Source: Clostridiales bacterium
GTDB taxonomy: Bacteria; Bacillota; Clostridia; Oscillospirales; Oscillospiraceae
DNA: 35,062 nucleotides
Assembly (NCBI GenBank): GCA_020860575.1
Contig: JAJBUB010000004.1
Span: 8,414 to 43,475 of the forward strand
Direction of reading: 5' to 3'
The position numbers and the translations under genes are program-made. Shown here piece after piece: positions 9,438 to 11,864 of this stretch. How positions within the stretch are numbered: the stretch's first letter is position 1; each line of letters begins with the position of its first letter. The notes beneath the pieces were generated by a model. The model searched no databases, had not been told where the DNA came from, and saw only the letters and a list, made by a program, of their open reading frames with translations.

Positions 9438-10442
9438 TCACTTCACCGTCCACGCCTTTGGAATAAAAAGCTCTCCATATTTTGCCACGGCGTAGGTATC
9501 GGTCATGCCTGCGATGTAGTCGCACACCGCCCGTTCTACCCCCTCCTGATAGCGGATATCCTGAAAGTCCGCCGGGAGCAGATCCGGGTCCTTGACATAG
9601 GCCTCAAACATCCGCCGGAGCATCTCCTGGGCCTTGCCCTCCTCCCCCTTCGCCTGGGGATTGCGGTAGACCATCTCGAATAGGAACTCCCGCAGCTCGT
9701 TCATGGCCGCCCCGATCTCCGGGGACTGACGGATGGCGGCTCCCTCCTGGCTGCTGTCGATGACATCCTTGACCAGGGTGTCGATGCGCTGGCTCTTGTT
9801 GAAGCCCAGGATCTCCCGGAGGTGGATGGGGATGTCCAGAGGATAGATGATGCCGCCCCGCATGGCGTCGTCGATGTCGTGATTGATGTAGGCGATCCGG
9901 TCGGCGAACCAGAGGATCTGGCCCTCCAGGGTCTCCGCCTTGTCGCTGCCCGTGTGGCAGAGGATGCCTCGCCGGACCTCATAGGTCAGGTTGAGGCCGT
10001 CTCCCTCCTTTTCCAGCTTGTCCACCACCCGGAGAGACTGTACGTTGTGCCGGAAGCCTCCGGGCATGATCTCGTCCAGCACCCGCTCCCCGGCATGGCC
10101 GAAGGGGGTATGTCCCAAATCGTGGCCCAGGCCCGCCGCCTCCGCCAGGTCCTCGTTCAGGCCCAGGCCCCGGGCGATGGTTCGGGCGATACGGGTGACC
10201 TCCAGGGTGTGGGTCATCCGGGTGCGGTAGTGGTCGCCCTCCGGCTGGAGAAAGACCTGGGTCTTTCGCTTCAGTCTGCGAAACGCCTTGGAGTGGACGA
10301 TGCGGTCCACATCCCGCTGAAAGCAGGTGCGCACCTCGCATGGCTCCTCCGGGCGCTGCCGCCCCCGGGAGTCTGCGCTTTTGCAGGCTCTGGGAGAAAG
10401 CAGGACGTTCTCCGCCTGCTCGATCCGCTCTCTGACCAGCAT
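9438..10442 (-). CDS. deoxyguanosinetriphosphate triphosphohydrolase-like HD protein
   Basis: 334 aa. DRIVHSKAFRRLKRKTQVFLQPEGDHYRTRMTHTLEVTRIARTIARGLGLNEDLAEAAGLGHDLGHTPFGHAGE. Adjacent to dnaG-rpoD as in other Firmicutes. Confidence 0.93.
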   Translation of the reverse strand: MLVRERIEQAENVLLSPRACKSADSRGRQRPEEPCEVRTCFQRDVDRIVHSKAFRRLKRKTQVFLQPEGDHYRTRMTHTLEVTRIARTIARGLGLNEDLAEAAGLGHDLGHTPFGHAGERVLDEIMPGGFRHNVQSLRVVDKLEKEGDGLNLTYEVRRGILCHTGSDKAETLEGQILWFADRIAYINHDIDDAMRGGIIYPLDIPIHLREILGFNKSQRIDTLVKDVIDSSQEGAAIRQSPEIGAAMNELREFLFEMVYRNPQAKGEEGKAQEMLRRMFEAYVKDPDLLPADFQDIRYQEGVERAVCDYIAGMTDTYAVAKYGELFIPKAWTVK

Positions 10443-10557
10443 CCGCTCACCCCCTGTTTCCTGCCCGCTCGGGTCGATTTTTCACCTTCTCAAAAAGAAT
10501 ATACGCAAAAGATGGGAAAAATCCTGCTGCAAAAGGAAATTTTGTGTGAATATTCAA

Positions 10558-10718
10558 GGCATTACCGCATAAATCGGCAAGAGCGTATGGCGAGATATTT
10601 TTCGTCAGAAAAAGGTGCAAAAAGTGCAGGCGTACTGGATGTACGTCAAACTTTTGCTAACGCATTTCTGGCGGAAAATAGCCGCCAGACGCCGCAGACG
10701 CATTTGTGCGGTGATGCC
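10558..10718. repeat. ~161 bp imperfect inverted-repeat (foldback/MITE-like) intergenic element
   Basis: Left arm GGCATTACCGCATAAAT...GCGTATGGCGAGATATTTTTCGTCAGAAA...GCAAAAAGTGCAGGCGTAC pairs with right arm GTACGTCAAACTTTTGC...TTTCTGGCGGAAAATAGCCGCCAGACGC...ATTTGTGCGGTGATGCC around a TGGAT loop. Confidence 0.8.
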
Positions 10719-11864
10719 TCAATCAATACGCTTTTCCATCAGCTCCAGAGGCACCGTACTGTCCTCAGCAGCCCCCAGACTGCGGAAGCCGTACTTGAGA
10801 TAGAAGTGCATCCCCTGCTCGTTGTCCTCCGAGCAGCGGAGGCGTATCCTGTTCCGGCCCAGGGGGCGGAAGGTGGCAACCGCCTGGCCCAACAGCTGGA
10901 TGCCCAGCCCCTGCTCCCGGGCCTCCGGCGTGACGTAGTAGAAGTAGATGAATCCGGCGTTGTCCTCCTGATACCGCTCCAGGTCCATCTGGAGCAGACC
11001 GGCAATTTCGTCTCCCCGCATGGCGCAAACCACCGACCAGGGATTTTCCAGGGCGGAGCGGAGGGCCTGACGGTAAAAGGTCTCCCCGTCGTAGGGCAGG
11101 CCGGGGTGGACCCGCTCCCAGGTCTCCCGGCGGAAGCGGTCATAGAGGTCCCGCTCCCCCACCGGGTCCCAGGGACGATACCACAGATTGGCCGCCGGCT
11201 CTGAGACGTTGCCCGCCGTCTTCCACTTCTGGTTGGCCAGGGTGGACAGCTCCCTGGGCAGGTGGGAGTTGTCGCAGGCAAAGGCAACCTTCACCTGATC
11301 CCCCTCAATTTCCAGACAGGAGACCCCGGTATTGTCACAGCGGGGGATTTTCTGGTTGATCTCCTCCACCGGATAGCCGTAAAAGACGGACAGGGCGGAG
11401 CGAAGGGCGATGTAATGGGTGGAGATGCCTATGGTCTGTCCCGGGTGCCGGGCGGCCAGCTTCAAAATCGTGCCGCTGACCCGGGTGCGCAGTTCTTCAT
11501 AGCTCTCCCCGCCGGGGGCGCGAAAGGTCGGGGAGCAGGTCTGAAAGCCGTCCATCCCCTCCGGATCGGTGCGGCGCACCTCTCCCCAGGGCCGGTCCTC
11601 CCACTCTCCCAGGTCCATCTCCCGGAGACCTGTATCCAGCTGGAGAGGCAGCCCCTTGTGCTCATAGAGCGCCCTGGCGGTCTGGCGGCAGCGGCGCAGA
11701 TCGCTGGAATACACAGCGTCCAGGTGGATGTTGCGAAAACGTTCCTCCAACGCAGCGACCTGACGGAGACCGTTCTCCGTCAGGCTACTGTCATACTGTC
11801 CGTGGATGCGGCGGTAGAGGTTGCCCTCCGCCTCCCCGTGGCGGACGATGTAAACGGTCGTCAT
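10719..11864 (-). CDS. two-domain protein: histidine phosphatase (phosphoglycerate-mutase-like) fused to a GNAT acetyltransferase
   Basis: 381 aa. N-terminal VYIVRHGEAEGNLYRRIHGQYDSSLTENG, C-terminal FIYFYYVTPEAREQGLGIQLLGQAVATFRPLGRNRIRLRC..NEQGMHFYLKYGFRSLG. Confidence 0.9.
   Translation of the reverse strand: MTTVYIVRHGEAEGNLYRRIHGQYDSSLTENGLRQVAALEERFRNIHLDAVYSSDLRRCRQTARALYEHKGLPLQLDTGLREMDLGEWEDRPWGEVRRTDPEGMDGFQTCSPTFRAPGGESYEELRTRVSGTILKLAARHPGQTIGISTHYIALRSALSVFYGYPVEEINQKIPRCDNTGVSCLEIEGDQVKVAFACDNSHLPRELSTLANQKWKTAGNVSEPAANLWYRPWDPVGERDLYDRFRRETWERVHPGLPYDGETFYRQALRSALENPWSVVCAMRGDEIAGLLQMDLERYQEDNAGFIYFYYVTPEAREQGLGIQLLGQAVATFRPLGRNRIRLRCSEDNEQGMHFYLKYGFRSLGAAEDSTVPLELMEKRID

Follow-up and report, generated by a model that had tools for sequence, protein, structure and literature searches.

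The stretch of DNA analysed here (35,062 nucleotides of a Clostridiales bacterium, hereafter the window) carries a 161-bp foldback between two genes transcribed from the minus strand, which raises the question of whether this sequence is a mobile repeat, a structure kept by selection, or both. All the arms quoted in a preliminary description were found where it had placed them, and the predicted plus-strand RNA fold of positions 10540-10740 (-86.4 kcal/mol) was much more stable than those of 200 dinucleotide shuffles (-52.5 +/- 4.3 kcal/mol; z -7.9), none of which reached as low a value. The minus-strand fold of the element was weaker (-63.5 kcal/mol, z -3.7), and with covariance model R2 the core scored 107.7 bits on the plus strand and 27.4 bits on the minus strand. 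Across the class, the apical hairpin follows the consensus GCAGGAATAC-TTNNT-GTATTTCAAG, with one G-U pair kept in most cores. The terminator scan found no T-run or terminator-like site at the element, in agreement with the earlier remark that a canonical T-run is missing, and an intrinsic terminator (a G+C stem followed by a T-run) was rejected on this ground; the promoter scan showed no sigma-70-like site nearby.

The neighbouring genes, all on the minus strand, encode the domains DHO_dh (pyrD), His_Phos_1 and GNAT, HD and HD_assoc (dgt-like), DnaG and RpoD, which matches the neighbours named previously (pyrD, phosphatase-GNAT, dgt, dnaG and rpoD). The element had been described as abutting the phosphatase-GNAT stop codon. 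The adjacency stands, but the stop codon is not just beside the element: TGA, the complement of TCA at 10719-10721, lies within the right-hand TCAA of the target-site duplication, which explains why the element abuts the gene end. Since the duplicated target resupplies the stop codon, the gene was left unharmed and the end of its protein unchanged. The transcript of the phosphatase-GNAT/dgt side carries the weaker-folding minus strand. The coordinates of the features are collected in Table 1.

Table 1. Features of the foldback element and its flanking genes (positions in the window)
Feature	Position	Strand	Remarks
Whole element (MITE, 161 bp)	10558..10718	+	Plus is the more stable single-stranded fold; models R1 and R2 are written in this sense
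Left TCAA copy of the target-site duplication (4 bp)	10554..10557	.	From sequence; single TCAG at the empty site of G021; family-wide 4-bp duplications
Right TCAA copy	10719..10722	.	Holds the phosphatase-GNAT stop codon (TGA on the minus strand)
Left terminal inverted repeat GGCATTACCGCATAAAT	10558..10574	+	
Right terminal inverted repeat GGCATCACCGCACAAAT (as read on the minus strand)	10702..10718	-	
Conserved foldback core	10583..10692	+	Occurs class-wide with many different ends; covariance model R2, class search
Apical hairpin around GCGTAC-TGGAT-GTACGT	10630..10649	+	
Histidine phosphatase-GNAT gene	10719..11864	-	Stop codon is the insertion site; frame end unchanged (...KRID*)
HD-domain dGTPase-like gene (dgt)	9438..10442	-	Next downstream on the same strand

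A search of the element's own genome with blastn found four full-length copies, along with several that were partial, and matches were present in 23 of the 32 genomes of the same genus. Exact 4-bp direct repeats flank 32 of 90 distinct genus copies, against a mean of 5.1 when the flanks were shuffled; in other genera, they flank 32 of 81 copies. They are mostly of the YTAR type (TTAG, TTAA, CTAA and CTAG), of which the TCAA in the window is a variant. Five close congeners, with phosphatase-GNAT proteins 94-98% identical (G007, G008, G012, G021 and G022), are empty at this locus; the unduplicated site of G021 reads GAATGT-TCAG-TCGATGCG, as against GAATAT-TCAA-(161 bp)-TCAA-TCAATACG in the window. 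According to a simple purpose-built gene caller, none of the 90 genus copies lies inside a gene; 18 of 82 copies were located at a stop codon; gene context beyond the window was derived by simple ORF scoring, and the counts for other genera from codon-trained calls. The copy numbers are minimum values, since scans of many genomes scored no more than the best 15-19 candidates in each. Contigs were also seen to terminate at copies of the element (G009:C269, G030:C34, G030:C1 and contigs of G401), and as assemblies break on the element in this way, its copies are undercounted.

The copies differ in size. Larger ones of 200-273 bp in the same genus (L243, L237, L236, L242, L235 and L049) bear additional hairpin modules at set positions in the core, and what appears to be the same module was seen in different subfamilies and in either arm, which suggests that the modules may themselves be mobile or exchanged. 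At the other extreme, L238, L239, L240 and L241 are minimal MITEs of 54-79 bp with ends GGAACCTCTGAATAAAT and without a core, suggesting that the ends suffice for spread.

The ends of the MITEs resemble those of IS5-family elements from the same genus or family. One IS5-family transposase of the same genus (DDE_Tnp_1 and DUF772 in Pfam; NCBIfam NF033581 at 1.8e-96) is carried by an element of approximately 1.14 kb with ends GGCACCACCGCACAATG / GGCACCATCACACAAAG adjoining CTAA, while a second IS5 lineage, 45% identical to the first, has ends GGAACCGCTGATTAATA / GGAACCACTGATTTAAT, also given as GGAACCRCTGATTWA. The two MITE end types of the genus, GGC..ACCGCAYAAT and GGAACCTCTGAATAAAT, resemble the first and the second lineage, respectively. 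In two cases the identity is complete (17/17), namely between IS L118 of genome G028 and the MITEs of G057, and between IS L430 of G165 and the MITEs of G127. The left terminal inverted repeat in the window is identical at 12-13 of 17 positions to the best-matching ends of the IS5-family elements L117 and L118 of the same genus, and the right one at up to 14 of 17 positions to IS5 ends, the link between transposase and MITE being drawn from end sequences only. The element's own genome (assembly 95.5% complete) yielded no IS5 relative of this kind at E <= 1e-10, nor was an intact IS5 transposase found in most of the relatives searched, so that we infer the mobilising enzyme from other genomes. 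A PF05598 search of the genus returned one IS5 element with clear ends and otherwise mostly fragments. The IS5-family transposase genes observed were mostly fragmented or interrupted (G010:C14, G006:C37, G016:C9, G017:C33 and G085:C147) and the MITE copies plentiful, which suggests that the MITEs outlive their IS. Judged by its terminal inverted repeats, 4-bp YTAR-type duplication, multiple copies and empty sites, the window element is an IS5-family MITE, which would have moved in trans. The same features bear out the earlier suggestion of a non-autonomous mobile repeat.

The interior of the element has a different distribution. A covariance model of the full element, built from 30 genus copies, matched 70 of the 151 genomes searched in the family, from 57 of 106 genera, and 60 of the 197 searched in the order. 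In other families, the match was often confined to model positions 25-133, and elements that matched over their full length ended in unrelated sequences, such as AGAACCTGTTCCCATAGG, GGTGTATCTGAAAACT and GGGTCTGTCGRAAAA. With a core-only model, built from 50 diverse copies, relatives, themselves multi-copy, were found in 55 of 245 genomes of the class. These represent 40 of the 157 genera sampled, and the dispersal in gut Clostridia that had been suggested is thereby corroborated. The same model matched 8 of 250 genomes of the phylum, two of which (the element's own and G096) belong to its own family, and this low rate doubles as a specificity control; the E-values of such purpose-built models are rough. 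When named genomes were scanned for the exact pattern, all hits were to MAGs of Clostridiales and Oscillospiraceae, and the class is called Clostridia on that basis. Rfam searches with the window and divergent copies gave no matches or chance matches only, with no covariance-model match at the gathering score. Phage and plasmid records gave no match with blastn, which is weak for hairpins this diverged, and a description of the repeat was not found in literature searches, which reached few subscription journals.

Ends and core appear to have separate histories. Among 34 elements, core identity and end identity were nearly uncorrelated (r = 0.20), which indicates that the two reassort: L256 and L273 share 86% of the core and 53% of the ends, while L278 and L275 agree in all 17 end bases and in 56% of the core. 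On this sequence evidence, the foldback core is older than its ends. Cores were also observed in inverted (head-to-head) pairs, separated by a short spacer such as gctccgc, in several families (L290, L295, L297, L298, L317, L319, L322, L323 and L329), some of these pairs lying between the arms of a larger inverted repeat (GGGATAAGTCGG...CCGGCGTATCCC in L290). Related cores within flanking inverted repeats (AGTACTCTGTTAACCCTAATT... in L334 and L337) were seen in genomes outside the class (L334, L335 and L337), indicating that the core reaches beyond it.

The pairing of the core has been preserved through compensatory change, as the earlier suggestion of selection on structure would have it. In the genus alignment, double changes occurred in 27 of 50 pairs (171 cells, compared to 51 when shuffled), and in the class alignment in 33 of 34 pairs (400 cells, compared to 113); slid controls fell far below the observed counts. 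Compensatory change above controls is what a structured RNA should display, though arm-to-arm correction of the DNA could also yield it. What the preliminary description had named as evidence against its reading, a single copy lacking homologues and covariation, is thus contradicted on all three points.

The strands of the core are not equivalent. The plus strand gave the more stable RNA in 71 of 72, 52 of 52 and 34 of 34 copies (157 of 158 in total, the copies being related rather than independent tests), a polarity to which common inheritance of a few fixed G-U positions could contribute. G-T and A-C combinations were counted only in pairs predicted on both strands and with a Watson-Crick majority, which avoids the folding bias of the plus strand. 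In the two alignments, G-T exceeded A-C both in cells (70 vs 20 and 80 vs 21) and in pairs (26 vs 7 and 16 vs 5; sign test p = 0.0013 and 0.027), and the excess was present by both mutational routes. Together with the polarity, it suggests selection on one single strand, either RNA or ssDNA. Correction between the arms at the DNA level has no strand sense and would not favour one strand, whereas RNA or ssDNA of fixed sense both would.

These data bear on the strongest alternative, that the element is an ordinary IS5-derived MITE whose palindrome is kept by arm-to-arm correction of the DNA (hairpin-templated repair) and whose core is functionless. We regard this as a real possibility, if not a probable one: long-foldback MITEs are common, double changes are also expected from arm correction, and the 54-79 bp MITEs that consist of terminal inverted repeats only move with the same ends. 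It fits poorly with the G-T excess in both alignments and the better plus-strand fold in 157 of 158 copies, and also with a core that survives changes of its ends and keeps its consensus bases over many families. The core of the window element is therefore probably more than junk between two ends. More tentatively, it may be a class-wide structured nucleic acid not filed so far, with a plus-sense function of its own, either as a small RNA or as a hairpin specific to one strand, which repeatedly swaps its terminal repeats and so rides different transposases; we hold this to be a real possibility rather than the likely case.

Strand polarity would also be expected if the core were a one-strand ssDNA hairpin serving an HUH (tyrosine) transposase, similar to REP/REPIN-RAYT, and the inverted core pairs in several families would then be a dimer form like that of REPIN/BIME (PMC3116915, PMC3733652). 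We consider this improbable, as Y1 transposase genes (PF01797) were missing from 17 of the 25 core-rich genomes searched, no core lay within the flanks of approximately 1.5 kb around the 27 Y1 genes found, and terminal inverted repeats with 4-bp duplications indicate a DDE enzyme. An identity as RAYT/REPIN was rejected, the cores having shown no association with Y1 (HUH) transposases in these searches.

That the element is an RNA acting in cis on this operon, as a terminator, an attenuator or an RNase III site favoured by selection for what it does to phosphatase-GNAT or dgt, is very improbable, since, in spite of the strong fold between two same-strand genes and the known effects of Correia and ERIC elements on mRNA (PMC10969869, PMC2229807), the locus is empty in all close relatives, the T-run is absent, the transcribed strand is the weaker folder, and copies elsewhere lie between other genes in either orientation. 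Among copies between same-strand genes, transcripts carry the minus rather than the plus strand in 37 vs 25 cases in the genus and 38 vs 21 elsewhere (75 vs 46 pooled, p = 0.011). The stronger plus fold is thus, if anything, avoided in mRNA, with no sign of a benefit from it there.

The most convincing explanation, which we consider very probable, combines an IS5-mobilised MITE with exchangeable ends and an old core whose single-stranded fold selection maintains in one sense, the element being locally a structured spacer. The anatomy and the empty sites, both observed directly, point to a non-autonomous MITE that would have been brought in by a borrowed IS5-type transposase. The shape of its core appears, from the compensatory change and the preference for G-T over A-C, to be under selection as a one-sense single strand, most likely plus-strand RNA or a plus-strand ssDNA hairpin. 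Between the phosphatase-GNAT and dgt genes it is probably just a structured spacer. Read-through mRNA would hold the weaker minus-strand fold, which RNase III could cut or which might affect mRNA ends, rather than a terminator, and by analogy with ERIC and Correia elements the ends or the stability of transcripts may be modestly affected.

The usual view of MITEs is that they are remnants of an IS and that their interior is dispensable. In the present repeats it is the interior that is conserved across many Clostridia families, and the ends that can be exchanged. Should the core have a strand-specific function, it would be a structured element that is widespread yet absent from Rfam, and one on which to study how non-autonomous elements switch transposase. 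The covariance models enable annotation of these repeats, which were found at many contig ends in the assemblies examined.

The element shares with IS5-family MITEs its short length, IS-like terminal inverted repeats, 4-bp YTAR-type duplication, intergenic position, multiple copies and a rare or lost transposase, but its interior is a conserved structured core found class-wide under unrelated ends, rather than what a deletion left of one IS. Correia/NEMIS and ERIC elements, intergenic foldback MITEs of 100-170 bp which are transcribed and can affect mRNA (PMC10969869, PMC2229807), are similar, the likeness meant here being one of architecture; they were reported from single groups (Neisseria and enterobacteria), whereas the present core spans many families. 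The clustering described for the pneumococcal BOX, RUP and SPRITE repeats (PMC10969869) recalls, in its nested insertion, the additional hairpin modules that the larger copies bear at set positions, but the present core consists of a single long hairpin and has terminal inverted repeats. Finally, hairpins in inverted dimers are shared with REP/REPIN, with the CGTC repeats, which have no dedicated transposase (PMC3733652), and with the two-armed CIR RNA of Caulobacter (PMC2229807). Unlike REPs, which measure 20-40 bp (PMC3733652), and REPINs, the cores described here are approximately 108 bp long, carry terminal inverted repeats and target-site duplications, and have no RAYT linkage.
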